A stretch of DNA of 64,000 nt from Streptomyces caniferus. Lineage in GTDB: Bacteria; Actinomycetota; Actinomycetes; Streptomycetales; Streptomycetaceae. Positions 3,475-61,112 of the stretch are shown in pieces. The DNA lies in NCBI RefSeq assembly GCF_009811555.1, contig NZ_BLIN01000005.1:248001-312000 (forward strand), given 5' to 3'. Both the position numbers and the translations under genes were made by a program. A model generated the notes under the pieces. That model worked only from the letters and a program-made list of their open reading frames with translations. It made no database searches and had not been told where the DNA came from. Within the stretch, counting starts at the first letter, position 1. The number at the start of each line of letters is the position of its first letter.

Positions 3475-3894
3475 TCAGGCGAGGAAGATGACCGTCACGG
3501 TGTCGATGGCGACCAGGACTCCGTAGGAGAGCAGCATGGTCCCGGACAGTGCCACGGCACGCCACGGCACGGGGTCGCCGTACTGCTCGACGTCCATCGT
3601 GAACGGCATCACCGGTGGGGCCTGGCGGTCGGCGACCTTTTCGTAGAGGGTGCGGAACCTCCGCTCCTGACGGAGGTAGTAGCTGTCGAGCAGCCAGAAG
3701 CCCGCCGCCAGCGCCAGGGCGACCGCGGCCGTCTTCCAGCTCGGGCCGCGGGTGGCGACCGCAATGAAGGCACCGCTGACGGTCATGGCCCAACTCTTGA
3801 CGAGGAAGGACGTATTGGCATGGCGGGCGATCACGGCCTGGAGGAACTCCAGGTGTTTCACTTCCTCCGGAGCGAAGCGCGGTGGCGCGGTCAT
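3475..3894 (-). CDS. Small multi-span membrane protein, last gene of the TIR/NTPase operon
   Basis: The 139-residue protein has two or three hydrophobic segments (about 30-48, 55-72 and 110-138) around a charged stretch WLLDSYYLRQERRFRTLYEKV. The N-terminal KHLEFLQAVIARHANTSFLVKSW resembles an unnamed bacterial family of small membrane proteins; I know no assigned function. Its ATG overlaps the previous stop codon by 4 bp (ATGA), so translation is coupled to the 590-residue membrane protein. It is likely a membrane partner or effector of that system; this is inferred from context only. Confidence 0.8.
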   Translation of the reverse strand: MTAPPRFAPEEVKHLEFLQAVIARHANTSFLVKSWAMTVSGAFIAVATRGPSWKTAAVALALAAGFWLLDSYYLRQERRFRTLYEKVADRQAPPVMPFTMDVEQYGDPVPWRAVALSGTMLLSYGVLVAIDTVTVIFLA

Positions 3895-5663
3895 CGCGCC
3901 GTTCCCCCTTCCGCATGCGGCGGGCTCTCCGGGGTGGTGGGACGGGACTCCTCGGAGGGTGCCGTCGCGGGCGCGCCGGGTGCCGGGTCGGCCTCGGATA
4001 TCGGAGTGGTCGCGTCGGGTATTCCCGTCTGGCCGGATACGGGCGGGCGGTCGGGCACCCGGGCCTCGTCGGACGTGCGGGAGCCGTCGGGATGGGGAGC
4101 CGCATCGGGCGCCAGCCCCTCCCCGGCGGCCCGGGACTCGCCGGCCACCTGGGCCTTCCCGGGGACCTGGACCTCGCTGGGGGCCGGGGCCTCGCTGGGG
4201 GCCGGGGCTTCGCTGGGGCTCTGGGCCTCCCCGGGCTCCCCGGCTTCCCGCCCGCTGCCTGAGCCCCGATCACCACCGGATGCCTCCGCGTCGATCTGCT
4301 CTGCGGGTCGTTGCTGCCTGGGTGCCGCTCGGAACTGTCCGTTCAGGTCATCGGCGATGCCGTTGAGGCGGTCCTCCAGCGGTTCGGGGGCGTAGCGTTC
4401 CAAAACGGTGCAGGCGCGATCGAGGAGTTCGAGACGGGCCCGGGGCGGGGTGGGACGGGTGGGCGCCCGGTCGTCGGCGGTCGGGGCGGCGCCGTTGCGT
4501 ACCGATGGGGGGTACGGCCAGGCGGGCATGGTGAGCGGAAAGTCGTAGCGGCCGGCCACGCCGGTGCGGGCGCGCTCCTCGACGATGCGGATGCATGCCT
4601 CTTCGAGCGTGCGGTGGGCGTCGCTCGCCGCCGCCTCGACGGTGGACTGCAGCCGCCACCAGGTCTCGGTGTGCCCCACCAGCCTGCGTCGTGCCTCCCT
4701 CAGCAGCTCCCGGCCGCGCTTCTCCGCGGCGACGACGGACCGTTCGGCCTCCCGGTCGCTGTCGGCGCAGGGGTTGTGGGCGAGCACCTTGACCACGATC
4801 GCGGCGGTGCTGAGCACCAGGGTGAGGATGACGACCGCGCTCTGGTCCGGTGCCAGGTCCACGTGCTCGCGCACCGCGTCGGCCGCGCGCATCCGGGCCC
4901 AGATGCCCACCATCGTGAGGATGGCCACGGTGAAGAGCACCGGGCCGGCCGCGTTCGGCCAGGGCAGTTCGCCGGCTTTGCGCCGCTCCGTATGCGGGCT
5001 CCTGGGCCAGACCGCCTCGCGCAGGGCGGCGAGCGGTCCGCGGCGGGTCCGCTCCAGTGTGCGGGCGGTCCGGGTGCGCCGCCGGAAGACGGATTCGGCC
5101 AGCAGGCTGCCCGCGGCAAGGAGGCAGACGGCGACGCCGAATCCGGGCAAGTACGCCAAATAGTAAGCGAGTTGGCCCGTGCCGAGTCCGAAGAACCGCT
5201 GCATCAGGGTGCCGATGAACATCGTGTCGAAGGCGACCCCGGCGACCAGGGTGGGCCACAGCAGACGCCGCCAGAGCACCGGACGGCGGCGCAGGCTTTC
5301 CGGTCCGTCGTCCGCGTGCCGGGCGTGCAGTTCCCCGACGTGCTCCTGGGCCCGCTGGGACGACCTGGCGACGGTGAACCGCTCGGCCGCTTCGATGGTG
5401 GTCCGCGCCTCCTGGAAGGTGCGGGCGACTTCGGTCGCCGCGCTGCCGAGCCCCGGCTGCGCCGCGGTCAGCACGGTGTTGGCGTCGGTGAAGGCCCGCA
5501 TGAGGGCGGCCTGTTCCCGGTTGTCGGTCTGGTCCGCCGGCCGGGAGGACGGTCGCTTCTTGATGTCCAGTTCCACGAAGGCGGGGTCCTGGCCGGCGCA
5601 GTCGACCGCCGCCTGATAGCGCGCGGCCGGCCCTGTCCGGTGCTTTCCGTTGGTGGTGTTCAT
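3891..5663 (-). CDS. Four-span membrane protein with coiled-coil flanks and long acidic Pro/Ala tail, TIR operon
   Basis: This 590-residue protein has a charged, helical N-terminus (to about 130), a first hydrophobic pair (LLWPTLVAGVAFDTMFIG and YLAYLPGFGVAVCLLAAGSL), a second pair (PVLFTVAILTMVGIWA and SAVVILTLVLSTAAIVVKVL), a helical Glu/Arg-rich region, and a C-terminal 120 residues of low-complexity Pro, Ala, Glu and Ser with APSE-type repeats. I recognise no family. The gene starts 15 bp after the vWA-OmpA gene and overlaps the next gene by 4 bp. The tail looks extracellular or disordered; topology is not certain. Confidence 0.82.
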   Translation of the reverse strand: MNTTNGKHRTGPAARYQAAVDCAGQDPAFVELDIKKRPSSRPADQTDNREQAALMRAFTDANTVLTAAQPGLGSAATEVARTFQEARTTIEAAERFTVARSSQRAQEHVGELHARHADDGPESLRRRPVLWRRLLWPTLVAGVAFDTMFIGTLMQRFFGLGTGQLAYYLAYLPGFGVAVCLLAAGSLLAESVFRRRTRTARTLERTRRGPLAALREAVWPRSPHTERRKAGELPWPNAAGPVLFTVAILTMVGIWARMRAADAVREHVDLAPDQSAVVILTLVLSTAAIVVKVLAHNPCADSDREAERSVVAAEKRGRELLREARRRLVGHTETWWRLQSTVEAAASDAHRTLEEACIRIVEERARTGVAGRYDFPLTMPAWPYPPSVRNGAAPTADDRAPTRPTPPRARLELLDRACTVLERYAPEPLEDRLNGIADDLNGQFRAAPRQQRPAEQIDAEASGGDRGSGSGREAGEPGEAQSPSEAPAPSEAPAPSEVQVPGKAQVAGESRAAGEGLAPDAAPHPDGSRTSDEARVPDRPPVSGQTGIPDATTPISEADPAPGAPATAPSEESRPTTPESPPHAEGGTAR

Positions 5664-5678
5664 CGCTGCCCGCCACCC

Positions 5679-7004
5679 TCACTTTCTGATGATGTCGATG
5701 TCGACGCGCCGGTCGCACTGGAGCCGGTCCTCGGCCGTCATCCGGCCCGTCGCGGTGCGGGCCGGCTTCGCGCACCCCGTCGGCAGGCCCCGGCCGTATG
5801 CCGTCACCCGTGCCGCCCCGAGCCCGATCAGGACCTTCTTCACCGCGTTCGCCCGTGCCTGCGACAGCCGCTGGTTGTTGTCCGACCGGCCGCGCGGGTC
5901 GACGTAACCGGAGACGGTGACCCTGCTGCCGGGGGTGGTGCGGGCCCGGACCGCGACATCGTTGAGCAGCGGCAGTGCCTGGGGGCGGACGGTTGCGGAG
6001 CTGGTGTCGAAGAGGGCGGCCCCGGGGAGCTGGTACGTCTCGGGGCGGTCGTTGGCGTACTGGACCACCGGGTCCTGCGCCGGCTTCTTCCGCGGCGCGC
6101 GATGTCCGGCCGTGCCGATGGCCGTCCGGGCGACGGTGCAGGAGGTGCCCGGGGCAGCCCGGTCCGCGCCGCACAGCGTGCGCCACAGGGTGGTCAGCCA
6201 GGTGCGCTGGGCCGCCGTGGGGGCCGGCTGGTCGGCGGCCGGCTGGCCCAGACCGGCGAGCGTGAGGTCCACCCCGGTCAGGGACGGGGTCTCCTCGCGG
6301 GCGGCGCAGACCCGGGCGATGGCCCTGATCTCGCTCTTGTCGCGGAAGGCGGCCGCCCGGAGATCGGCGCAGCCCGTGGTGGAGAGCCCGTCGGTCAGGA
6401 CGATCAGGCTGCGGGTGCCGGACGCCGCCTCCAGTGAGGAGGCTCCTGCCGCGAGGGCCGCGAGGACGTTGCTGCCGCCGCTCCGGGGGGCGGCACTCGC
6501 GGCCTCGCCGACGAGGTCGGTCAGGCAGCCGACCGCCTGCTGCTTCCGCTTCTCCCGGTTGATGGGGTTGTCGTTGTTCTTCGCCCAGTCGGCCGACCGG
6601 TCCTTGGCGATCCAGGTGATCTGCGCCGCGTCGCCGCTGAAACTGCCCACCGAGACCATGTCCTTGCGCGCGACCACCTTCGCGAGAAGGGAGCCGACGC
6701 TGTGGGCGTAGTCGCGTCCGGTGGTCCGGCCCCGTACGGAGGCGGAGTCGTCGACGAGGACCACCGTCCGGCCGGCGGTGTCCACGGGTTCCTTCATCCA
6801 GGCACAGGCGTCCAGGCGTGGGGAGTCGCCGCAGGCGCCGAGGAGACCGGCCATGACCGCCATTCCCAGGGCCGCGGCGAGCGGCGGGAGGGCGCGGCGG
6901 CGCCCGGGTGACCGGAGTGCTGCGGGGTCTGCGGGGTTCGCGGGAGGTATGGGCTGCACGGGATGTACGGACTGCAGCGGATTGACGGGGTTCACCGGGC
7001 TCAC
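5679..7004 (-). CDS. Lipoprotein with von Willebrand A-like and OmpA-like domains, TIR operon
   Basis: The 441-residue product has a Pro/Val-rich N-terminus, a hydrophobic signal (LAAALGMAVMAGLLGAC) ending in a lipobox cysteine, and then a vWA-like domain with a MIDAS motif (VLVDDSASV) and the later VLTDGLSTTG. The C-terminal third is OmpA-like: ALFDTSSATVRPQALPLL, VSGYVDPRGRSDNNQRLSQ and CDRRVDIDI, a fold that binds peptidoglycan. It should sit on the outer membrane face and tether to wall. GTG 7004 overlaps the preceding stop (GTGA) with GAGGAG upstream, so translation is coupled to the 301-residue gene. Confidence 0.85.
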   Translation of the reverse strand: MSPVNPVNPLQSVHPVQPIPPANPADPAALRSPGRRRALPPLAAALGMAVMAGLLGACGDSPRLDACAWMKEPVDTAGRTVVLVDDSASVRGRTTGRDYAHSVGSLLAKVVARKDMVSVGSFSGDAAQITWIAKDRSADWAKNNDNPINREKRKQQAVGCLTDLVGEAASAAPRSGGSNVLAALAAGASSLEAASGTRSLIVLTDGLSTTGCADLRAAAFRDKSEIRAIARVCAAREETPSLTGVDLTLAGLGQPAADQPAPTAAQRTWLTTLWRTLCGADRAAPGTSCTVARTAIGTAGHRAPRKKPAQDPVVQYANDRPETYQLPGAALFDTSSATVRPQALPLLNDVAVRARTTPGSRVTVSGYVDPRGRSDNNQRLSQARANAVKKVLIGLGAARVTAYGRGLPTGCAKPARTATGRMTAEDRLQCDRRVDIDIIRK

Positions 7005-7906
7005 GGGGCCAGCTCCTCGACGTCGGCCGCGCTGTCCACCCACGAGAAGGGGCTCAGCCCCATCTGGCGGCAGAATTCGCTCAGCGCCTTGTCGTAGGCG
7101 TTGGCGTACTCGAACAGCCCCACCTGCTCGTGGTGCTTGGTCGCGGCCGTGAGGACGTTGGCGAGCGCCTCGGCCCCGTTGCGGCGGGTGTTCTTGAGCG
7201 CCTGCATGACCTTGAAGAAGTCCTCGTCGGCGAGGGCCGCGGCGAACGGCACCAACAGCCGCCGCTCGGCCGGGCCCAGGGTGCCGAGGAGCTCCAGTTC
7301 GCTCATCACCCGCAGCCAGCGCTCGGTGCGCGCCTGCACCTGCCCTGCCTTGAGCTCACCGAGGCTGTGCTCCTCGGTCAGTCGCAGTTCGGCGAGGTGG
7401 AAGGGCAGCACATGTTCGCGCAGGGCCGGGTCGATACGCATCCGCACCGACGCCCGGCAGCGGATCAGGCCCTTCTCGTCGTTGTAGCACCACCCGCCGC
7501 GCAGCTCCTTGTTGACGGCCTTCTCCGCGGCCACCGGATCGCCCGGATCGCAGGCCCGGGCGACGGCCCAGGCGCGGCGCAGCAGTTTGCACCGGGCCGC
7601 CTCCTCATGGAGCACCGCGCGCTCGCGCAGGGTGTCCAGCGTCATCTCCCGGCTGCTCCAGCGGAAGTGCGGGACGAGTTCAAAGGCGAACACGTCCCCG
7701 CGGGCCGCCACCGACAGCACCTCGTCGCCCGGCGGCAGTTCCACCGCCACCTCGGCCTGAGCCGCCTGGCCGGCAGTCGCGGGGCCGGCGGTGCCCTCGG
7801 CCTCGTCGACGGGCTCGGGACCGTCGGCGGTCTCCGCGTCGTTCCTGCCCGTTACCCGGCGCCACCAGTTGCGGAGCCTGGTGCGCAGTCCTTTGCGCTC
7901 TGTCAT
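7001..7906 (-). CDS. Unrecognised 301-aa cytoplasmic protein, TIR operon
   Basis: The protein opens with a basic amphipathic segment (KGLRTRLRNWWRRV) that could touch membrane, then an acidic linker to about 55, then a mixed alpha/beta region (DVFAFELVPHFRWSSREMTL to RCRASVRMRID) and a long helical C-terminus (HLAELRLTEEHSLGELKAGQ onward). The middle faintly recalls SPFH/band-7 proteins, but I cannot confirm this. A strong AGAGGAGT site precedes ATG 7906, 29 bp after the NTPase gene; its stop overlaps the vWA-OmpA start. Function unknown; the context makes it an adaptor between NTPase and membrane components. Confidence 0.8.
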   Translation of the reverse strand: MTERKGLRTRLRNWWRRVTGRNDAETADGPEPVDEAEGTAGPATAGQAAQAEVAVELPPGDEVLSVAARGDVFAFELVPHFRWSSREMTLDTLRERAVLHEEAARCKLLRRAWAVARACDPGDPVAAEKAVNKELRGGWCYNDEKGLIRCRASVRMRIDPALREHVLPFHLAELRLTEEHSLGELKAGQVQARTERWLRVMSELELLGTLGPAERRLLVPFAAALADEDFFKVMQALKNTRRNGAEALANVLTAATKHHEQVGLFEYANAYDKALSEFCRQMGLSPFSWVDSAADVEELAP

Positions 7907-7935
7907 GGTCGTACTCCTCTTCGTGCGGGCGTCGG

Positions 7936-10242
7936 TCAGGACACGGAGCCGGTGGTGAGGCCGCCTCGGACCGGCTGGTGACGGAGCCGGCCGATGGTGA
8001 ACGAGTCCGGGTGACGGCCGGCCCACATACCGAGGTAGAAGCCGGCACGCAGGGACAGCGGCCGGGAGCAGATGCGCGGTACGAGCAGCTCCAGGAAGGC
8101 GGCGAGTTCCTTGTCCGCGTCGCCCGCGAGCAGCCAGCGCCGCAGCAGGTCCCAGGCGCGTGTCGAGCTGTCCTTGCCCATCAGGGCATGACGCCACAGG
8201 CGCACCAGGGCATCGGCGCGGTCCTGGTCGGTCATGGCGGTGTCGGCCAGGACGGGCCGGTCGCGGCGGTCCGGTCCGGCGCCGTAGCGGCTGAGGATCA
8301 GCAGGGTGCGGATCGCGTGGCGGTTCAGATGGTCGTTGTCCGAGGTGATCCAGTGGTCCAGGGCGTCGGCGGTCGGCCCCGGGGCGCCGGCGAGGTAGAG
8401 CCAGGACATCGAGAAGGCCACCGAGCTGCTGAACGCCAGCTCCGGGCGGGTGCCGAGTTCCCGCAGCGCCCAGAGGGTGTCCGGGACGTCCTGCGCGCCG
8501 ACCAGCGTTCCGTACGCCCGGGCCGCGCTGTCCTGGAGCTGCCACCGGGGGCTGCTCAGCCAGCTTCTGATCTGGCCCCGCACCCGGTGCACCAGCCGCG
8601 GATCGTGGGCCGCCATCTCCAGGGCCAGCGCGGCGGACTGCCGATAGGCCGCGGACTCCCCGGCCCAGTGCCGGATCAGGTCGCGGTAGACGCTGTCGAA
8701 GTCGTGGCTGAGCAGGATGCCCGCGATCTGCGCGGCTCGGACCCGGATGCGCTCCAGCGGGCCGGAGACCAGCGCCGTCAGCCACTCCCGCAACGGGTCG
8801 CGCAGACTGTCGTAGTCGTGCCACACGACCTCGATGACGGCGTGCATCAGCTCCTCGTCCACCAGCCTGGCGCGCCGGGGGTTGTCGTCGGCGCGGCCGC
8901 CGGGCGCGGCGTCCGCGGAGGCGCGCATCTCCTGCGGGATCAGCTGGTCCAGTTCCCGCTCGAAGACGTGGTTGGTGGGCGCCGGTTCACGGGTTTCGTA
9001 GCGGGGCAGGACGGTCGCACTGAGGACCTCGCCCGCCTCGAAGACGTCGGAGAGCGGATGGCCGTGGAAGAAGGCGTAGGCGATACGGAACGCCTGGCGG
9101 TGCGGATCGAGGACCGGGCCCTGTGAGGTCTCGGCGGGGACGTGCAGCAGTCGCTTCGCCAGGCGGCGCAGCCGGTCGCGCCACTGGTTGATGACCTCGC
9201 CGAGGCTGGTGTCCTCGGTGTGCACGCTCTGCGCCAGGACCTCCGCGAACTCCACGACGCTGCCCACGGACGGGGCCCCGTCGAGGGTGCGCTGCACCTG
9301 CGGCGACTCCAGCATCCGGGTGATGAACGCCGTGGTGTGCTCGTCGGTGCAGTCCTCCCGGGTGCAGACGCCCGGGTGCCCCGCCAGCAGTCGGCGCAAG
9401 TGCACCGCCAGGACGTCCCCGAGGAGGGGGCGCCGGTGCTCGAAGGCGTGGGGGCGCAGCCGGTCGGGGTCCACCGGTCCTGGTTCGCCGATGACCACGA
9501 GGAAGGCACCCTGTTTGCGGGCGAGATGGCCGAGGGTCTCCAGTGTCGACAGCTTCAGCGGCTGGTCGTCCAGGTCCACCAAGTAGCCGCCCGGGGTGAG
9601 GAGTTCGTCGGCACGCCGGCACAACGCCTGGAGGATGCCGGGGGCCTCGCTGTGCAGGATCCGTACGCTGTCGTCGGAGCAGCAGCCGGCGAGCAGGGTC
9701 AGCGCCGTGGACCGGCGGCCGCTTCCCGGCTGTCCGGCGAGTACCACGATGTGCTGTGCCGCGAGCCGGGCGGCCATCTGTGCCTGCTGGTCGACGTCCT
9801 GATGGGAGTCCAGTTGCTGGGCGATGGTGAGCGCGGAGACACTCAGCACCTGGATCTCGACGCCGGTGTCCGCGCCGATGGTCAGCTGCTCGGCGTAGAA
9901 GGCGGAGCCGCTGCCGTGGGCGACGGCACTGCGCTTGAGCTTGTTCAGGGCGTTCTGCTGCCGGGCCTGCTGGTAGCGGGTGAAGTCGCCGCCGTCGCCG
10001 GTTTCGCGCCGGCGGGAAGCCCGGCCGGTGTCCTGGGCCGACGGGCGGTTGTCACCGCTCCTGTCCGCTGCCACCGGCTCGTTCGCCGGACCCGCGGCGA
10101 CGGCTTCGGGGTGGGCCGCGCCGGTCTCCCCCGGTTCGGGCGCGCTCTGCGCCGGTTCGTCCGGGGTCGCGGACGAGAGGTCCTCACCCGGTACGTCCTC
10201 CGGGGCGGCGCTCTGCGCGTCGGGCTGTTCGGTGTCGCTCAC
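7936..10242 (-). CDS. STAND/AAA-like NTPase with degenerate P-loop and helical-repeat C-terminus, TIR operon
   Basis: The 768-residue protein starts with about 90 disordered acidic residues, then the motif KRSAVAHGSGSAFYAE (103-118) also found at the TIR protein tail. An NTPase core follows: Walker-A-like AGQPGSGRRSTAL (169-181), where Arg replaces both the usual Lys and the next Ser/Thr, a Walker-B-like YLVDLDDQPL near 220, and FLVVIGEPG. Residues from about 480 form regular helical repeats suggestive of HEAT/ARM. GTG 10242 overlaps the TIR stop (GTGA) with GGAGGG upstream. Its size and build suit a sensor/scaffold of a conflict system; hydrolysis may be weak or absent. Confidence 0.82.
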   Translation of the reverse strand: MSDTEQPDAQSAAPEDVPGEDLSSATPDEPAQSAPEPGETGAAHPEAVAAGPANEPVAADRSGDNRPSAQDTGRASRRRETGDGGDFTRYQQARQQNALNKLKRSAVAHGSGSAFYAEQLTIGADTGVEIQVLSVSALTIAQQLDSHQDVDQQAQMAARLAAQHIVVLAGQPGSGRRSTALTLLAGCCSDDSVRILHSEAPGILQALCRRADELLTPGGYLVDLDDQPLKLSTLETLGHLARKQGAFLVVIGEPGPVDPDRLRPHAFEHRRPLLGDVLAVHLRRLLAGHPGVCTREDCTDEHTTAFITRMLESPQVQRTLDGAPSVGSVVEFAEVLAQSVHTEDTSLGEVINQWRDRLRRLAKRLLHVPAETSQGPVLDPHRQAFRIAYAFFHGHPLSDVFEAGEVLSATVLPRYETREPAPTNHVFERELDQLIPQEMRASADAAPGGRADDNPRRARLVDEELMHAVIEVVWHDYDSLRDPLREWLTALVSGPLERIRVRAAQIAGILLSHDFDSVYRDLIRHWAGESAAYRQSAALALEMAAHDPRLVHRVRGQIRSWLSSPRWQLQDSAARAYGTLVGAQDVPDTLWALRELGTRPELAFSSSVAFSMSWLYLAGAPGPTADALDHWITSDNDHLNRHAIRTLLILSRYGAGPDRRDRPVLADTAMTDQDRADALVRLWRHALMGKDSSTRAWDLLRRWLLAGDADKELAAFLELLVPRICSRPLSLRAGFYLGMWAGRHPDSFTIGRLRHQPVRGGLTTGSVS

Positions 10243-10868
10243 CGCTGCCCTCCGCTCTTCGCGTCCCGGTTCTCGTTGTAGGTGGCGGGGCCGCTGCCGT
10301 AGCTGACGGCGCTGCGCTTGTGGACGGCGTCCCCGCCCGCGCGCAGCCCGCCACTTCCCGGGAGCCCCTCGCCGTCGGTCGGGGACGGCTGCCGGGCCGT
10401 GCTGCTCACGGGTACGTGGTGGCGCAGTGCCTCGGTGATGACGGGGAGGTCGAGGTGCGCGTACGGCACTCGCAGATGCATGACCTGTCGTTCCGCCAAC
10501 CCTGCGATGGTGTCGGGCAGTTGGCCCTTGGTGGGCAGCACGGCCGTGTCGATCAGCACCGGGACGACGGTCTTGCGCCACTCCAGCGCGCAGCGGATCT
10601 CGTCGTGGACGTAGTCGCCGGGTACGTCGATCCGGCGCCGGCCGTCGTCGTCGCGCAGAGTGAGCCAGTTCGGGCCGATGAGCACGAGGAGGACCCCGCA
10701 GCTTTCGAGCGCCCGCCACAGGTCGGGCGGAAAGTGTGCGCCGGCCGGAATGGCGCGGCGGTCCCGGAAGACGTTCTCCGGCCCGAATACGTCCTTCAAT
10801 TCCTCGTCGAGCAGGACGGCTGCTTCGGCACCGTCGCCGGTCCGGTAGTTGATGAAAACGCCGGCCAT
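10239..10868 (-). CDS. TIR domain protein, first gene of a six-gene operon
   Basis: Residues 1-150 of 209 form a TIR domain: VFINYRTGDGAEAA at the start, the BB-loop-like ENVFRDRRAIPAG, LVLIGPNWL, and DYVHDEIRCALEW, where Glu90 is at the position of the NADase catalytic Glu in bacterial TIR enzymes. A Gly/Pro linker leads to a tail, HKRSAVSYGSGPATYNEN, that matches a segment of the next protein. Bacterial TIR proteins cleave NAD or make cyclic ADP-ribose signals in anti-phage defence. ATG 10868 follows GAGGAAAG. It is the likely effector or signal generator of the operon; activity is inferred. Confidence 0.87.
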   Translation of the reverse strand: MAGVFINYRTGDGAEAAVLLDEELKDVFGPENVFRDRRAIPAGAHFPPDLWRALESCGVLLVLIGPNWLTLRDDDGRRRIDVPGDYVHDEIRCALEWRKTVVPVLIDTAVLPTKGQLPDTIAGLAERQVMHLRVPYAHLDLPVITEALRHHVPVSSTARQPSPTDGEGLPGSGGLRAGGDAVHKRSAVSYGSGPATYNENRDAKSGGQR

Positions 10869-11095: not shown

Positions 11096-12457
11096 TCAGG
11101 CCGGAGTTTCCGGCCCGGTCCGGTGGGTGTGCAGGCCGATCGCGATATGCGGAAGGGTCCGGCGAACGGTGGGATTCTTTGGCCAACGATTGAGTGCGCG
11201 GCTCAGCCGCAGAAGATCGGCACGGATCGTGGCCGAGTCGATGAGGGCCACATGGGAGGCGACCAATTCCGCGATCGCACAGGCCTGTTCGATGTCGCCG
11301 ACGTTCGCCAGTGCAAGCGCGAGCCGGGCGCCATATCGGGCCCTGGCCCGTCGGGATTCCGGCGGAATGGCGTCCAGACCGTCCCCGAGCAGGGTGACCG
11401 CCTCCGCCGGGGAACCGAGGTCGTGCATGCACCAGCCGGCGACGAACGCCGTCAGATCCGGCAGATGGATGCTGCCGAGGACCGGCTCCCCGCCGCCCGG
11501 GGGCGCCGCACCGGACGTCAGCTCCGCACCGCGGTCGAGAGCCCGGCGGCATGCGTCACGGTCGCCCACCAGGGCGTGCCCCTGTGCCTCGCGCTGCGCG
11601 GCGAGCCCGCGGATGCGTGCGCTGCGGGCCTGCTGTGCGGCTCGCCGGGCCAGTTGGACGGTGGCCACCGAATCGCCTGTGTACAGGGCGAGTTCCGCCC
11701 GGCGGACCAGGGCGTAGGCGGCCAGTTCGTCGTCCCCGCTGTCCGCGGCGAGCTGGACCGCCTGCTCGGTCCACCACAGTGACGCCGCGTCGCTGCCCGC
11801 CTCCTGCGCCATCCACCCGGTGTACTCGGCGAAGCGGGAGGCGAGCCGGAGGACGGTGTCCCGGTCGGCGGGCCGTGCCTGGTGTGCCATGCCGCGCAGG
11901 GCGCTGGTGGCCGCGATGCAGAGCTGGGCGACCACGGCCGGCCCGAAGAGCTGCCCCATCCGGCGGAACTCGTCGAAGACGGTGCGGAAGTACGGCAATG
12001 CCGCATTCGACTCCCCGCTTTCGAAGGGAGGGGGTGCGAGGGACCAACTCACCAAGGTGGAAGGCATGGCCCCGGCGCCGAGCGATGCCCGGTCGAATGC
12101 CACGAAGTCGCTCTCGCCGCCGGCGTGCATACGTAATGTCCAGGGCGTGGTGACATCCGCTTCGGCGAGGGGTGTCGCGACGGTGCTGCGCTCGGGCGCG
12201 GAAATCAGACCGCTGAGTTGCCCTCCGGCATTGAGGGCGCTGTCGCATAACTGGGCAAGATCGTGACTGGGCGCCTTCACACCGCGCTCGATCTTGCTCA
12301 AGTGGCCTTTGGAAAAGCAAATCAGGTGCGCCAGTTCTCCCAGCGACAGCCCCGCTTCGATCCTTCGTCGGCGTAACTCCGCACCGAACCACACAGGAAT
12401 CCGCTGCACCCCGCTCGCCCCCCTCGTCGCTCGCGACCGGTGAGGGGAGTGTGCCAC
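11096..12457 (-). CDS. XRE-family regulator with TPR-like C-terminal domain
   Basis: The 453-residue protein has an N-terminal helix-turn-helix (GAELRRRRIEAGLSLGELAH, then FSKGHLSKIERGVKAPSHDL) and a long helical, TPR-like region from about 150 to the end, as in the large Streptomyces class of XRE-TPR regulators. The GTG at 12457 is the furthest start; GTG 12409 fits the HTH equally well. It is on the same strand as, and 227 bp upstream of, the TIR operon, so it is the prime candidate for its regulator. No direct evidence of target sites was seen beyond the nearby hairpin. Confidence 0.85.
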   Translation of the reverse strand: MAHSPHRSRATRGASGVQRIPVWFGAELRRRRIEAGLSLGELAHLICFSKGHLSKIERGVKAPSHDLAQLCDSALNAGGQLSGLISAPERSTVATPLAEADVTTPWTLRMHAGGESDFVAFDRASLGAGAMPSTLVSWSLAPPPFESGESNAALPYFRTVFDEFRRMGQLFGPAVVAQLCIAATSALRGMAHQARPADRDTVLRLASRFAEYTGWMAQEAGSDAASLWWTEQAVQLAADSGDDELAAYALVRRAELALYTGDSVATVQLARRAAQQARSARIRGLAAQREAQGHALVGDRDACRRALDRGAELTSGAAPPGGGEPVLGSIHLPDLTAFVAGWCMHDLGSPAEAVTLLGDGLDAIPPESRRARARYGARLALALANVGDIEQACAIAELVASHVALIDSATIRADLLRLSRALNRWPKNPTVRRTLPHIAIGLHTHRTGPETPA

Positions 12458-27965: not shown

Positions 27966-28057
27966 GGCGCCCGCCCCGCGGAAGGGGACAGCCCTGCCCG
28001 CGCCGGGGCGTCCCTCGCACAGGGCAACGCTGGTGAGAATGGCGACTGTTGGGCAGG

Positions 28058-30763
28058 ATGCCGGGTGTGGCGAAGTCGCGGGGATGTGAAGCATGTGGTG
28101 CGCCGCTCCCGACGCCCTCAAAGGCCGCGAGCGGTGGCACGGCGCCGGGCGGCCGGCCCGCACGGTACTGCTCCGGCGCCTGTCGGCAACGCGCGTTCCG
28201 CCGGCGCGCCGAGCGTCGCGAACCGCCTCGTACGGAGCTGCCGGGTCGCGGACTGCCGCCGCCCGCGCTCGATGCGTTCGTGGGGCGCGAGCGGGAGCTG
28301 TCACGGCTGCGTACGCTGCTGAGATCGTCGCGGCTCCTGACGCTGACGGGTCCGGGCGGAGTGGGCAAGACACGTATGGCGCTGGAGCTGGCGGGCAGCG
28401 TCCGGGGCGCTCGCGCGGGGCGTGCCCACTGGGTGGCACTCGACTCGCTGCAGGACGGCGAGCTGCTGCCGCAGGCTCTTGCCGCCGCCCTCGGGGTGCG
28501 CGAGCGTGGCGGCCGGGCCGGCGTCGAGGCGTTGGTGCATGCGCTGGGCACCCGCTCGGTGCTGATCGTGCTGGACAACTGCGAGCATCTGGCCGACGCC
28601 TGCGCGCGGCTGGCCGCGACGCTGCTCGCCCGTTGCCCCCGGCTGCGGATTCTCGCCACCAGCCGGGAGACACTGCGCGTCCCCGGCGAGGTCGTCTTCC
28701 GGGTCGGTGAACTGTCGCTGTCACCGTCAGGCGAGGACCACCACACCGCTGAGCTGCTGGGATCGGAGGCCGTCAGGCTGTTCCTGGCACGGGCCAGGGC
28801 GAGTGACGCGGCGTTCGAACTCGGACCGGGCGAGGCCCGTACGGTGGCCGAGATCTGCCGGCGGCTGGACGGGCTGCCGCTGGCCATCGAACTGGCCGCC
28901 GGGAGGGCGGGCTCGCTGTCCCTGCCAGGCATTCTGCACGGGCTGGACGATCAGCTGTCCCTGCTGACCGACGGCCGGAGGACCGGACCGGGCCGGCATC
29001 GCGAGTTGGGGGCCGCGATCGACTGGAGTCACCGCCTGCTCGACCCGCTGGAGAGGGTGGTGTTCCGGCGGCTGTCGGTTCTCGGGGGCGGCTTCGACGC
29101 GCAGGGAGCCGCCGCGGTCTGCGCCGATGGAGAGAGGCCTCGGGACGGAGAGGGGCACCTGGGCGGAGGGGAGTACCTGGACGTAGAGGGGTCCCTGGAC
29201 GGTGGGCATCTGGAGGGAGTCCGACAGCGGTACGGAGCTCCCCGGCAGGACGGCATCGGTCGCCCTGGCGACGCCGGCCACCCCACCGGGACCGCCGGAC
29301 AGCGCGCCACCGCTCACAGCCCCGTGCGCCCCGAGCAGGTGTTACGCGTGGTCTGTGCGCTGGAGGCCAAATCGCTGGTCGTGAGGGTACGGGGGGACGA
29401 GCGGCGGGACGGGGCGCGGTTCCGGCAGTTGAGTGCCATCCGGGCCTACGGGAGGGAACGGCTGGCGGAGGCCGGGGAGTTGGACGACACCTGGCACCGG
29501 GCGCTCGGCTGGCTGGCCGGCCGGGCCGCGGGAGCCGTCGCGGCGGAGACGTTCCCCGACACCGTCGAGGCACCCCTTCGCCAGGAGCAGGAGAACCTCG
29601 CGGCGGCCGTCGCGCGCTGCGCCGCGCGCTCCGACGACCGGCACTTCCCGCTCGCGGTGGCGCTGGCCCGGCTGCAGTACCAGCAGGAGCAGCTGACGGC
29701 CGCGCGCACGCTGCTGTCGGGGGTGTGGGAGCAGGTGCCCGATCACGAGGACCGCGTCGCGGCGTTGGCGCTGGCCGCGCGGTCGGCCTGTCTGCAGGAC
29801 GACCATGGCGCCGCCCTCGCCTTCGCTCAGGAGGCCGTCGCCGTCGGGCGCGCGGGACGACAGCCGGCCAGGCTGGCCAATGCCCTGGACGCGTTGGCGG
29901 CCGCCCGGCTGTACCGGGGCGAGTTCTCCGAGGCAGTAGCCGTATTCGCCGAGTGCCTCGACGTGGTCCGTACGCTCGGCCGTCCCCTCGACCTCGCGCT
30001 CTGCCGGCACCATCTGGCCTGGGCTCTGCTCCAGACGGGCGGCATCGCACAGGCCGACGCGCTGATGCACGAGTGCCTGCCGGAGCTGGAAGCGAGTGCG
30101 CCGCCGGGCCAGGTGACGGCCGCTCTGCACACCGCGGGGGCGATCCGGCTGGCGCAGGGCGAGGTGGATGCCGCCGAGCGGCGGTTCGCCGAGGTGCTGC
30201 TCAAGACGCCGCCCGGGGAGAGCTTCCATGCGCTCTACCCGCTCGAAGGGCTGGCCATCGTAGCGGCCGAGCGTGGCGAGGTGGAGCGGTCGCTGCGGCT
30301 GTACGCGGCGGCCTCCGCGATGCGTCGGCGGATCGACACGGAGCCGGAAGCACACTGGTGGGGGCAGGTGGAGGCCGCCGTGGCACGGGTCAAGGAGCGG
30401 GCTCATCCGTCCGGGGTCAGTGCGGCGATGGCGGCCGGTCGCCGGCTGCGGGGAGCGCGGTTGGTCACGTATGCGCTGCGTGGCACACCACTCGGTTCCA
30501 CCGGACGTGACGGTGGTCAGGAAGCGCGCCCCGGTCAAGGCGACGTGATCGGTCAACCTCCGTTGACCGGACGCGAGTCGGCGGTCGCCGAGCTGGTCGC
30601 CGAGGGCATGACCAACCAGCAGATCGCCGCACATCTGGGACTCTCCAAGAGCACCGTGGCCAGCCATCTGGACCGGGTCAGGGACAAGTGGGGCGTCAGG
30701 TCCCGTACGCAGATCGCGGTCCGGTTCGCGGGACGGGCGGCGGGCCCCGATTCCGGTTCCTGA
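28058..30763 (+). CDS. LuxR/LAL-type regulator with N-terminal Cys motif and STAND ATPase
   Basis: About 901 residues. An N-terminal putative zinc motif (CEACGAPL and YCSGACRQRAFRRR) precedes a STAND ATPase with Walker A GPGGVGKT (98-105), Walker B LIVLDNCEH and LATSRETLRVPGE. A TPR-like helical region follows, and the C-terminus is a LuxR helix-turn-helix (PLTGRESAVAELVAEGMTNQQ). A Gly/Asp-rich insert of about 65 residues lies near 350-415. It probably senses a ligand or protein and activates transcription. The start is uncertain between TTG 28049, ATG 28058 and GTG 28064. Confidence 0.88.
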   Translation: MPGVAKSRGCEACGAPLPTPSKAASGGTAPGGRPARYCSGACRQRAFRRRAERREPPRTELPGRGLPPPALDAFVGRERELSRLRTLLRSSRLLTLTGPGGVGKTRMALELAGSVRGARAGRAHWVALDSLQDGELLPQALAAALGVRERGGRAGVEALVHALGTRSVLIVLDNCEHLADACARLAATLLARCPRLRILATSRETLRVPGEVVFRVGELSLSPSGEDHHTAELLGSEAVRLFLARARASDAAFELGPGEARTVAEICRRLDGLPLAIELAAGRAGSLSLPGILHGLDDQLSLLTDGRRTGPGRHRELGAAIDWSHRLLDPLERVVFRRLSVLGGGFDAQGAAAVCADGERPRDGEGHLGGGEYLDVEGSLDGGHLEGVRQRYGAPRQDGIGRPGDAGHPTGTAGQRATAHSPVRPEQVLRVVCALEAKSLVVRVRGDERRDGARFRQLSAIRAYGRERLAEAGELDDTWHRALGWLAGRAAGAVAAETFPDTVEAPLRQEQENLAAAVARCAARSDDRHFPLAVALARLQYQQEQLTAARTLLSGVWEQVPDHEDRVAALALAARSACLQDDHGAALAFAQEAVAVGRAGRQPARLANALDALAAARLYRGEFSEAVAVFAECLDVVRTLGRPLDLALCRHHLAWALLQTGGIAQADALMHECLPELEASAPPGQVTAALHTAGAIRLAQGEVDAAERRFAEVLLKTPPGESFHALYPLEGLAIVAAERGEVERSLRLYAAASAMRRRIDTEPEAHWWGQVEAAVARVKERAHPSGVSAAMAAGRRLRGARLVTYALRGTPLGSTGRDGGQEARPGQGDVIGQPPLTGRESAVAELVAEGMTNQQIAAHLGLSKSTVASHLDRVRDKWGVRSRTQIAVRFAGRAAGPDSGS

Positions 30764-47519: not shown

Positions 47520-48476
47520 CTAGTTGTATTGACCCGCAGGGTTGTTCACGCGGCTGATGGGTGACTTGCCTCCGAGTGCGGTGTGGCACCTGTGATGGTT
47601 GTAGCTGTGCAGGAAGGTGTCCAGTGCGGCGGTTCGTTCGTCGTTGCTGGTGTAGGGCCGTAGGTAGGCCCATTCGTCGAGCAGGGTGCGGTTGAAGCGT
47701 TCGACCTTGCCATTGGTCTGCGGCCGGTAGATGCGCGTGAGCTTGCCGGCCGCGCCGAGATCTGCAAGCGCCTGACGCCAGGCGAAGCTCTTGCGGTAGG
47801 GCCAGGCGTTGTCCGTCAGGACACGTTCGATGCGCAGGATGCCGCAGGCGGCGAAGAAGGCTGCGGCCCGCTGCAGGAAGGCCGCGCAGGTGGCGGCTTT
47901 CTCGTCCCGGTGGACTTCGCTGTAGGCGAGGCGGCTGTGGTCGTCGACTGCGGAGTGGATGTAGTCGAAGCCTGTGGTGCGGCGGCGGTCGGGGCAGGCG
48001 GCACGGCCGTGGATGCGCCAGCCCCCGCCGTCGGGTATGCGGCCGAGTTTCTTCACGTCCACGTGGACGAGCTCGCCGGGCCTGCTGCGTTCGTAGCGGC
48101 GGATGACCTGGCCGGTGGGCCGGTCGAGGAAGGCGAGGCGGTTCAGGCCGTGCCGGGCCAGGACCCGGTGGACGGTCGAGGCCGGCAGGCCCAGGATCGG
48201 TGCGATGCGAGCCGGGCCCAGCTTCCGGTCTTGCCGCAACCGGCATACCTGGTCCTCTACCGCGAGAGGAGTCCGGTGCGGTGTCGTGTGCGGCCGGCTG
48301 GGACGATCGTGCAGCCCGGCCTCGCCCTGCGTTCTCCAGCGACGCAGCCACTTGTGGGCGGTGGGCCGCGAGATGCCCATCTCGGCGGCGACGTGTGCGA
48401 TGGGGCGCCCGGAACGGACGCGCTCGACCAGCAGCCGCCTGCCGTGAACGGTCAGCCGGGCATTACGGTGGGACAC
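47520..48476 (-). CDS. IS481-family transposase
   Basis: The 318-residue protein has two N-terminal HTH segments (VERVRSGRPIAHVAAEMGIS, LHDRPSRPHTTPHRTPL) and a DDE integrase core: GELVHVDVKKLGRIPDGGGW, IHSAVDDHSRLAYSEVHRDE, RVLTDNAWPYRKSF and the Glu in NGKVERFNRTLLDEWAYLRP. GTG 48476 follows GGAGG. The reading frame is intact, so the element may be active. Its stop codon TAG falls in the target-site CTAG at the left end. Confidence 0.93.
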   Translation of the reverse strand: MSHRNARLTVHGRRLLVERVRSGRPIAHVAAEMGISRPTAHKWLRRWRTQGEAGLHDRPSRPHTTPHRTPLAVEDQVCRLRQDRKLGPARIAPILGLPASTVHRVLARHGLNRLAFLDRPTGQVIRRYERSRPGELVHVDVKKLGRIPDGGGWRIHGRAACPDRRRTTGFDYIHSAVDDHSRLAYSEVHRDEKAATCAAFLQRAAAFFAACGILRIERVLTDNAWPYRKSFAWRQALADLGAAGKLTRIYRPQTNGKVERFNRTLLDEWAYLRPYTSNDERTAALDTFLHSYNHHRCHTALGGKSPISRVNNPAGQYN

Positions 48477-48577
48477 GAAGACCTCCGTGCGGTGCAGTCC
48501 TAGACAGCTCCACCACACCGGAGGTCTTCGCCATGATCAAGCCCAGCCAGCGTTAACAACGCTCGTGATCAATACAG
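47524..48577. mobile_element. IS481-family insertion sequence with CTAG target duplication
   Basis: The ends are imperfect inverted repeats: left TTGTATTGACCCGCAGGGTT and, read inward from the right, CTGTATTGATCACGAGCGTT. Both are bounded by CTAG (47520-47523 and 48578-48581), a four-base duplication that matches the CTAG preference known for IS481. The element is 1,054 bp with one transposase gene. It has landed exactly on the stop codon of the neighbouring GNAT gene. Confidence 0.85.
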
Positions 48578-59162: not shown

Positions 59163-61112
59163 TCAGCCTGGGAGGGGGATGAACAGCAGGATGCCGTGGT
59201 CGGTTGCGGCGGTGTAGCAGGAAGTGCCGGGGAAGGTGGCGGTGTAGAAGGGGGTGGCGATGGCGAAGACGGGGACGATGGCGTTGTGGATGGTGGCGGT
59301 GCCGTTGGCGTCGGTGACGGCGGTGCCGAGGTTGACCGGGCCGAAGAGCGTGGTGGCGGTGAAGGTCACCGGCTGACCGGCCACCGGCATCCCCGAGGTG
59401 GTCGTCAGGGTGGCGCTGAGGGTGGGGATGTAGAACTCGGGCAGCGGGGTCAGCCGGAGCCGGATCGTGCCTGGCTGCGCGGTCAGCTTTGTGGGGGTGC
59501 GGTTCACGGTGACGGGGGTGCTGGCGTTGGAGCCGGTGAAGCAGCTGTCGCCGTTGTAGGTGGCGGTGAGGGTGCCGGTGGTCAGGGCGGTGGTGGTCAA
59601 GCAGGCCTGCCCCGATGCGTTGACGGGGACGATCTGGGTCTGGCCGTTGGGGAGGGTGAAGGTGACCGTGCCGGTCGGCACTGTGGTGGTGGCTGGTGCC
59701 GGGGTGATGGTCGCGCATGCGGTCACGTTCTGACCGCAGGTGGAGGGGTTCGGCGTCACCGACAGCGTCGTCGTGGTGGGGTTGGGGCTCACGGTGACGG
59801 GGGTGGGGTTGCCGTTCACGGTCGCGGTGAACGTACCGGCGGTGTAGGTGTGGGTGGTCTGCCCGCTCCCGGTGGCGTCCAGGGGGACGGTGACCGTGGG
59901 GCTGGCGTCCCCGAAGTCCACCACCGCGCTCCCGTTCGGGGTCCCCCCGGAAATGCTGAACGTCACCGGTTGCCCGCACACCGGCGCCGCCGGCGAGGTC
60001 GTCACCGTCAACGGCGAAATCTCCGTCACGTTCGCCGAGTTGGCGTTGGTGACGTAGACGTTGCTGTTCGGCGCCGCCGCCACCGAGAACGGGAACGCGC
60101 CGACGGGGACGGTGGCCAGGACCGTGTTCGTGGTGCTGCTGATCACCGTCACGTTGTTGGAACTGCTGTTGCCGACGTAGACGTTGCCGGTCGGCGCCAC
60201 CGCCACCCCGAACGGGCCCCCGCCGGTGGGGACGGTGGCCAGGACCGTGTTCGTGGCGCTGTCGATCACCGTCACGTTGTTCGAAACGGTGTTGGTGACG
60301 TAGACGTTGCCGTTGGGCGCCACCGCAATCACCCCCGGGACCGTGCCGGCGGGGACGGTGGCCACGACCGTGTTCGTGGCGCTGTCGATCACCGTCACGT
60401 TGTTCGAGGTCTGGTTGGCGATGTAGACGTTGCCGTTCGGCGCCACCGCCGCCGCGCCCGGGAAACCACCGGTGGGGAGGGTGGTCAGGACGGTGTTCGT
60501 GGCGCTGCTGATCACCGTCACGGTGTTCGCGTTCCGGTTCGCGACGTAGACGTTGCCGTTCGCCGCCACCGCCACCGCGTCCGGGACCGCGCCGACGGGG
60601 ACGGTGGCCAGGACCGTGTTCGTGACGCTGCTGATCACCGTCACATTGTTCGACGTGCTGTTGGCGACGTAGACGTTGCCGTTCGGCGCCACCGCCAGCG
60701 CGAACGGGCCCCCGCCGACGGGGACGGTGGCCAGGACCGTGTTCGTGGCGCTGCTGATCACCGTCACGTTGTTCGAGCTCTGGTTGGTGACGTAGACGTT
60801 GCCGTTCTGCGCCACCGCAATCATGGCCGGGCCTGAGCCGGCGGGGACCGTGGCCAGGACGGTGTTCGTGGTGCTGCTGATCACCGTCACGTTGCTCGAA
60901 TTGGCGTTGCCGACGTAGACGTTGCCGTTCGGCGCCACCGCCACCGCCAGCGGGCTCGTGCCCGCCGGGATCGTCACCGTGGAGAACGCCGCACTGAACG
61001 GCGCGACCGCAAGCCCCCGTACCGCGGCCACCTCGGATCCACCGGCCGGTACAACCGGCCGAACCCCGCCGGCCACCGCCGGAGCTCCCCACCAACCCGT
61101 AATCGGTTCCAT
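59163..61112 (-). CDS. Eight-unit YVTN beta-propeller protein with Ig-like C-terminal domains
   Basis: The 649-residue protein has eight tandem 42-residue units with the core AVAPNGNVYVGN and NVTVISSTTNTVLATVP (about residues 47-375), then Ig-like domains (PVCGQPVTFSISGGTPNG, VTFTLPNGQTQIVPVNA, GQPVTFTATTLFGPVNLGTA). YVTN propellers occur in surface and adhesion proteins. No clear signal peptide is seen, which is odd for such a protein. ATG 61112 follows GAGAGG, inside a short palindrome. The DNA repeat unit is 126 bp, a likely site of copy-number change. Confidence 0.85.
   Translation of the reverse strand: MEPITGWWGAPAVAGGVRPVVPAGGSEVAAVRGLAVAPFSAAFSTVTIPAGTSPLAVAVAPNGNVYVGNANSSNVTVISSTTNTVLATVPAGSGPAMIAVAQNGNVYVTNQSSNNVTVISSATNTVLATVPVGGGPFALAVAPNGNVYVANSTSNNVTVISSVTNTVLATVPVGAVPDAVAVAANGNVYVANRNANTVTVISSATNTVLTTLPTGGFPGAAAVAPNGNVYIANQTSNNVTVIDSATNTVVATVPAGTVPGVIAVAPNGNVYVTNTVSNNVTVIDSATNTVLATVPTGGGPFGVAVAPTGNVYVGNSSSNNVTVISSTTNTVLATVPVGAFPFSVAAAPNSNVYVTNANSANVTEISPLTVTTSPAAPVCGQPVTFSISGGTPNGSAVVDFGDASPTVTVPLDATGSGQTTHTYTAGTFTATVNGNPTPVTVSPNPTTTTLSVTPNPSTCGQNVTACATITPAPATTTVPTGTVTFTLPNGQTQIVPVNASGQACLTTTALTTGTLTATYNGDSCFTGSNASTPVTVNRTPTKLTAQPGTIRLRLTPLPEFYIPTLSATLTTTSGMPVAGQPVTFTATTLFGPVNLGTAVTDANGTATIHNAIVPVFAIATPFYTATFPGTSCYTAATDHGILLFIPLPG

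Follow-up and report, generated by a model that had tools for sequence, protein, structure and literature searches.

A tagged TIR-NTPase pair and an SPFH-like protein in a Streptomyces caniferus operon: core of a modular system with a proposed role in envelope-coupled conflict or cell death

What can a TIR-domain protein, a nucleoside triphosphatase (NTPase) and a series of membrane and wall proteins be doing together in one operon? The question is raised by a 64,000-nucleotide stretch of the 9.1-Mb genome of Streptomyces caniferus (contig NZ_BLIN01000005.1, positions 248,001 to 312,000; this whole stretch is called the window, and features of the locus lie on its minus strand), in which a preliminary description had proposed an undescribed six-gene system at 3475..10868. 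The six minus-strand genes, their coordinates, the 4-bp overlaps at 10239-10242, 7001-7004 and 3891-3894 and the gaps of 29 bp (7907-7935) and 15 bp (5664-5678) were all reproduced. The operon turns out to be one particular form of a broader system, the core of which is an effector, a tagged AAA+/HEAT NTPase and an SPFH-like protein. For its role we favour, with a probability of about 0.55, an envelope-coupled conflict or regulated-death system (an abortive-infection or death switch).

The effector, the NTPase and their common tag

The first gene (10239..10868, 209 aa) had been taken for a TIR gene, and this assignment held. The protein has a TIR_2 Pfam match (E 7e-8) and a match to tir-1/SARM1 (E 1.7e-5), in which E90, within the VHDE of 10599-10610, is aligned with the SARM1-type Glu that we take to be the catalytic one; E90 is invariant in all five sequences of the TIR alignment A9. 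By its sequence this is an NADase-type TIR domain with a catalytic-type Glu, for which NAD+ hydrolysis is predicted. The second gene (7936..10242, 768 aa) encodes an NTPase whose predicted structure is AAA+ plus HEAT repeats, with AAA+ and HEAT chains filling the list of structural matches, and whose P-loop GQPGSGRRST (9706-9735) has Arg where Lys is expected. The earlier label of STAND-like NTPase stands for the NTPase; its STAND part is putative, with an nSTAND3 score of 16.1 bits, well under the Pfam cut-off of 27.2 bits. The top Foldseek match was Avs5 with a TM-score of only 0.18, and a single-sequence search of the PDB gave nothing useful. Among 148 genomes sampled from the class, 16 had an NTPase match at E <= 1e-10.

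A link between these two proteins is absent from the preliminary description. The C-terminus of the TIR protein (residues 184-199, 10272..10319) and the N-terminus of the NTPase (residues 103-118, 9889..9936) carry a common tag of about 16 aa, KRSAVSYGSGPATYNE in the former and KRSAVAHGSGSAFYAE in the latter, with an alignment score of 52. This score was reached by 4 of 300 shuffles in the first, unmasked gapped run, by 0 of 500 in a masked ungapped run (whose mask also stripped true Gly-rich tags), and by 1 of 300 and 1 of 500 in runs over 22 clusters and over nine TIR lineages, both of which used a milder mask and allowed gaps. In the flanks of the NTPase relatives, too, the product of the upstream gene has a short C-terminal motif that is matched in the N-terminal tail of the NTPase next to it, and this motif differs between loci, as with GPTSFGGHAAGRDV and GPVSFGGHAAGRDV in locus L034 (loci are numbered with L, genomes with G). 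The loci were picked by their NTPase or TIR match and not by the tag. The 38 effector-NTPase pairs available, which omit L085 and L089 (no NTPase frame) and L081, L082, L083 and L087 (no upstream same-strand cyclase or TIR gene), were clustered at 50% NTPase identity, and one representative was used for each of the 22 clusters. Matched pairs had a mean score of 47.8 against 28.0 for mismatched pairs, and none of 50,000 permutations reached the matched sum; neither a change of representatives nor leaving out the mask altered this result, and the 19 cyclase clusters gave it by themselves. The same comparison on the protein bodies showed no such effect (4,632 of 50,000 permutations for the effector body and 48,791 of 50,000 for the NTPase body). 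For the nine TIR lineages, whose NTPases share just 27-44% identity, the means were 65.7 matched and 39.7 mismatched (0 of 100,000 permutations), the matched pair being best in its row in 7 of the 9; it may be added that the tails are part of the TIR profile A9, which may favour TIRs with similar tails. With 12 representatives, the first gapped run gave 0 of 20,000 permutations and the masked ungapped run twice gave 0 of 100,000, with 6 and 5 of the 12 matched pairs row-best.

Similar C-terminal and N-terminal patterns in neighbouring Bell and NLR proteins are how bacterial amyloid-signalling motifs were found, as far as the accessible text of PMC8086366 describes it. The pattern seen here, a similar short motif at the effector C-terminus and the adjacent NTPase N-terminus, resembles the one reported for such pairs; amyloid formation by the tags is a candidate. 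The tags could also be ordinary docking strands that recruit the TIR protein one-to-one to the NTPase, with no amyloid-like templating, a reading to which we give serious weight without preferring it. Its support is that tag sequences differ widely among the loci and that the model draws the NTPase tag, which sits in its low-confidence N-terminus (1-126), as just two short strands; it is opposed by the presence of the same motif on both partners, co-varying by locus, as in the Bell and NLR proteins of the accessible part of that source.

Two further tag observations were made. In L081 and L083 the NTPase's tag, VSGGN(V/L)NFG or VSGGNVIFG, recurs in a nearby opposite-strand gene, which in L081 looks TIR-like by eye. 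The S. caniferus genome also holds a second tagged cyclase-NTPase pair (L050, C7:168000-187900). Its two tags match each other (0 of 300 shuffles) and are distinct from those of the window, and a Crp-like gene and a PycTM-like match lie nearby; an SPFH-like match was not found at this locus.

A core with an exchangeable effector

The 301-aa protein of the third gene (7001..7906), earlier left without identity, is SPFH/band-7-like as judged from its predicted fold and from profile comparison. The top matches of its AlphaFold2 model in Foldseek were PHB1/2, the vault protein MVP and stomatin, with a probability of 0.97-1.00 for the first four and a best E of 2.8e-3 (none at or below 1e-3). The vault protein has an SPFH-like part. 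On the profile side the window family (A2) matches the family A11 at E 2.3e-9, and Band_7 is in turn reached at E <= 0.01 by 3 of 8 A11 members. For A10, the family of SPFH-like proteins from other TIR loci, the match to A11 is at E 8.2e-7; its direct comparison with A2 is weak (E 0.059), and the two are linked only through intermediates. None of the six A10 members matched Band_7, and no SPFH chain came up when the PDB was searched with A11. Between TIR loci, cross-matches were seen for L084 and L090 (about 1e-29) and for L034 and L090 (2e-5). A basic Trp-rich helix forms the N-terminus of the window protein.

In all, 44 loci were examined. Genome searches supplied 41 of them, and the other three are those of the window, S. 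angustmyceticus (L004) and S. sioyaensis (L005); 42 of the 44 hold the NTPase. The upstream same-strand gene is class III cyclase-like in 33 of the 42, a TIR gene in 5 and neither in 4. An SPFH-like gene is present in 28 of the 33 cyclase loci, in all 5 TIR loci and then in all 6 TIR-NTPase loci found later. The cyclase-like family has Ma1120 as its best match of solved structure (by profile, E 5.6e-8), and all 10 sequences aligned keep two Asp residues unchanged. Neighbours were counted within 3.5 kb on either strand (PycTM by phmmer at E <= 1e-3), and some of the SPFH, Crp and PycTM queries were taken from loci later counted. On this basis a Crp-like gene accompanies 28 of the 33 cyclase loci and a PycTM-like gene 17 (over the Pfam cut-off only in L036), with no XRE gene in any of the 33 over 626,077 bases checked; the five TIR loci all have XRE and none has Crp or PycTM. 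Counted by cluster in this first set, XRE occurs in 3 of 3 TIR against 0 of 19 cyclase clusters (Fisher p 6.5e-4) and Crp in 0 of 3 against 16 of 19 (p 0.013). A TIR search of 197 genomes of the class found matches in 18, own genome included. Six of the 15 newly examined TIR loci consist of TIR, NTPase, SPFH-like gene and a relative of the window XRE gene, and the other nine have no NTPase match in the stretch examined, with XRE in one of them. Thus all nine TIR-NTPase lineages, the window included, have an adjoining XRE relative (phmmer) and an SPFH-like gene; six lineages have the XRE gene upstream in the same orientation, and three (L084, L128 and L129) have it downstream on the opposite strand. 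In the window it is found at 11096..12457, outside the span first described, and scores 162.7 bits for NsdA_fam_reg (cut-off 75); this XRE/NsdA-family regulator is likely part of the system.

The envelope module and the small membrane protein

Behind the core, the window has an exported vWA-OmpA lipoprotein (5679..7004, 441 aa) and a protein with several transmembrane stretches (3891..5663, 590 aa). The former has an OmpA Pfam match (E 3.9e-9), a VWA_2 score under the cut-off (23 of 27 bits), the lipobox LLGAC (6831-6845), the vWA MIDAS (metal-ion-dependent adhesion site) motif DxSxS (6738-6752), and D369 and R384 in its OmpA domain; the lipobox Cys, the MIDAS residues, D369 and R384 are identical in 5 of 5 sequences of alignment A6. 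The latter belongs to a conserved family and has three transmembrane stretches by hydropathy (four in 2 of 3 homologues checked) and a Pro/Glu-rich C-terminal tail. Its profile matched in 3 of 119 genomes of the order, 2 of 148 of the class, 1 of 35 of the family of G247 and 2 of 180 of the own family, the own genome being included in the order, class and own-family counts and the samples overlapping so that the counts are not additive. In the four genomes found (G000, G070, G155 and G247) the gene always follows NTPase, SPFH and vWA-OmpA genes in constant order, and in the last three, of which G247 is of another family, a class III cyclase takes the place of the TIR gene. Judging from their numbering, the homologues' locus tags in Streptomyces sp. 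So13.3 (029115, 029110, 029100) and Streptacidiphilus sp. N1-3 (26150, 26145, 26135) also fit this order. The two genes are a rarer envelope module behind the core in both effector flavours.

The identical six-gene order is repeated in S. angustmyceticus and S. sioyaensis, and the arrangement is therefore not due to chance. In pairwise comparison of the window with these two, dN/dS was 0.20-0.50 across the operon's six genes, and the regulator upstream of them had 0.11-0.19. In S. inhibens, where the contig starts inside the NTPase gene, the order from there to the 590-aa protein is kept. A scan of genome contigs gave two close relatives, and a plasmid search covering 68 records gave one full relative. 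That the operon genes are chance neighbours, co-transcribed for unrelated reasons, is refuted by the four-gene order kept from the window to G247, and nothing was found in its favour. The preliminary description was to be refuted if its six families did not co-occur beyond close relatives. The block from NTPase to multi-transmembrane protein does stay together there (G070, G155, G247), but the TIR gene can be exchanged, and the small transmembrane gene at the operon's end is seen at this place only in the window's clade, which rules out the six genes as a fixed set. The idea of a TIR effector and an NTPase with a membrane and wall module is supported; what it lacked is the XRE regulator and the replacement of TIR by cyclase.

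We considered whether this is a developmental or envelope-stress module of Streptomyces, not a defence system, with the TIR protein acting in programmed hyphal death or sporulation control. An NsdA-family regulator lies beside the window TIR gene and its relatives at eight other TIR-NTPase lineages, the flanking FabV and HIT genes are common to the window and S. angustmyceticus, and one component is wall-binding, all of which would suit such a role. The rarity and patchiness of the multi-transmembrane protein in the order, class and family samples given above, and an effector swapping and tag diversification that look like those of conflict systems, make us think it unlikely.

The small transmembrane protein itself (3475..3894, 139 aa) matches the PADLOC family PDC-M50A at E 1.4e-31 and has no Pfam domain over the cut-off. 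A search for this family in 81 genomes gave four other loci, in which the gene lies beside a ThsB/PDC-M50B TIR (L101, E 4.7e-57), near a TIR gene (L100), beside a bSEFIR-type protein (L102), or with no TIR match nearby (L103); a weaker match (E 1e-11) was seen in L132, a TIR locus without NTPase. As relatives occur beside or near TIR-type genes in three of the four other loci, the small protein may act on the TIR product. In that case the TIR enzyme could make an ADP-ribose-type signal that gates the small protein, with NAD+ loss secondary. Thoeris TIRs signal to a partner protein, and the cyclase flavour would likewise signal to a Pycsar-type transmembrane protein, another nucleotide-signal enzyme filling the effector slot at the 33 of 42 loci with the PycTM-like and Crp-like neighbours counted above. 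Such a second messenger appears to us rather doubtful, since eight of nine TIR-NTPase lineages have no match to the small protein, L103 has no TIR match nearby and the protein itself has no Pfam domain over the cut-off.

Some side observations may be recorded here. Behind the core of L037 and L038 stands a vWA protein, joined in L038 by a tubulin-like one (by eye), a possible further extension of the core. A third NTPase relative in the S. caniferus genome (L082, C1:90000-109900) is followed by an SPFH-like frame and then by PP2C-like, kinase-like and vWA-like genes (by eye), its upstream gene being neither cyclase nor TIR by profiles. The convergent ThsB/PDC-M50B-type TIR and PDC-M50A genes of L101 (7104-8122) are a candidate two-gene system. 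Elsewhere in the window, Pfam identified a LuxR-type regulator with nSTAND1 and TPR domains (28049-30763, plus strand), an IS481-type transposase (47520-48518, minus) and a beta-propeller protein with Vgb-lyase/NHL and bacterial Ig-like domains (59163-61112, minus).

Known systems and a candidate mechanism

A literature search, made mostly outside subscription papers, found the six-gene set nowhere described in the accessible text of the sources (for example PMC8086366, PMC12261475, PMC7159879, PMC8195603 and PMC13174449). The earlier claim of an undescribed system therefore stands for the gene set in the literature found; the tag-pair principle is published and the small transmembrane protein is in PADLOC. 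We regard the operon as a variant of tag-coupled effector-NTPase systems. BASS pairs also have effectors other than Bell. As in the BASS NLR-effector pairs described in the accessible part of PMC8086366, an effector with a C-terminal motif lies beside an NTPase with a similar N-terminal motif; unlike them, the window has an AAA+/HEAT NTPase with a P-loop that is mostly Arg-type, and adds the SPFH-like protein, the regulator and the envelope module. The window tag is not assigned to one of the families BASS1-10. With Thoeris and PDC-M50, the latter probably a two-part system of TIR and small transmembrane protein to judge from the names A/B and from L101, the window has in common its PDC-M50A protein and an NADase-type TIR with sub-threshold matches to ThsB (PADLOC, E 3.4e-4) and to the type III ThcB4 (partial, 32.1 of 220 bits). 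It differs in its added NTPase and SPFH-like protein, in a TIR without PDC-M50B match at E <= 0.1, and in that no ThsA model matched any of the seven locus proteins at E <= 0.1. Pycsar is approached by the distant relatives in which a class III cyclase comes together with PycTM-like proteins, the one of L036 scoring above the Pfam cut-off, and the window differs by its TIR and by the extra tag, NTPase and SPFH-like protein. No PycC or PycTM match was found among the seven proteins, and of five cyclase relatives scanned only one matched PycC, weakly (E 0.0085), Ma1120 being the best solved match. NTPase, vWA, TIR, OmpA and Band-7 domains all occur in the MoxR-vWA ternary and iSTAND conflict systems (Kaur et al. 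2020, accessible part of PMC7159879); the window has another gene set, its vWA is on an exported lipoprotein, and no MoxR-type Pfam match was found among the operon proteins. For Zorya, there was a weak ZorB match in the OmpA part (E 0.0039) and no ZorA. We accordingly do not class the operon with Zorya, Thoeris, PDC-M50, Pycsar or the MoxR-vWA systems, nor its cyclase relatives as clear PycC.

Two precedents may be offered by analogy for an SPFH scaffold with an NTPase, one of them also with a TIR-like enzyme. HflK/C-FtsH is, in the sources as accessible, an SPFH assembly with an AAA+ protein, though one with a protease domain where the window has HEAT repeats. The other is the RNA vault (MVP shell, TEP1) with Swarozyc, which combine a shell protein, a NACHT NTPase and a TIR-like NADase, the NADase with its NACHT domain being inside the vault (accessible text of PMC13174449); the window has separate genes in a bacterial membrane setting.

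In the envelope-coupled conflict or death system that we favour, the SPFH-like protein would oligomerize into a scaffold on the inner face of the membrane and hold the NTPase, and the multi-transmembrane protein and the wall-binding vWA-OmpA lipoprotein would report envelope disturbance, such as phage entry, lysis or wall damage. Once the NTPase switches, clustering of its N-terminal tags would provide a template for the near-identical C-terminal tag of the TIR protein, in a BASS-like manner. Assembled TIRs might consume NAD+, so that the infected hyphal compartment stops. The small transmembrane protein may be an added membrane effector, and the NsdA-like XRE protein may control expression. 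Computed support comes from the gene set, the SPFH-like and AAA+/HEAT folds, the TIR Glu, the lipobox, MIDAS and OmpA residues, the tag matching and the effector swapping. A bolder and less probable version makes the window clade a membrane-based counterpart of the vault, with an SPFH cage, an AAA+/HEAT NTPase and a TIR NADase with a prion-like tag, in which wall damage, not an intracellular phage molecule, would fire the exchangeable TIR or cyclase through the peptidoglycan-gripping lipoprotein.

Several points weigh against the favoured role. The envelope trigger follows from domain logic and the whole reading from computation, and the NsdA-like regulator would equally suit development. Arg replaces the P-loop Lys in most of the NTPase family, so that hydrolysis may be weak or absent. 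Eight of the nine TIR-NTPase lineages are without the envelope module and the small transmembrane gene, and no defence island was seen among the nine further window proteins examined, by Pfam alone. The tags are short; no more than 11 of the 22 clusters have the matched pair as the best of their row, the own pairs of L035, L037, L044, L045, L086 and L088 are not significant (28 to 238 of 300 shuffles), and in the window's clade the tag match of L004 is weak (18 of 300 in the 22-cluster run, 55 of 300 in the first gapped run and 35 of 500 in the masked ungapped run).

The gene set joins three immune themes, namely homotypic tag signalling, SPFH/AAA+ scaffolds and TIR or cyclase effectors. The effector swap, in which a cyclase comes with Crp and often PycTM and a TIR protein with XRE, is a natural experiment on the role of the core, and the envelope module suggests a route from the cell wall to a cytosolic death enzyme.

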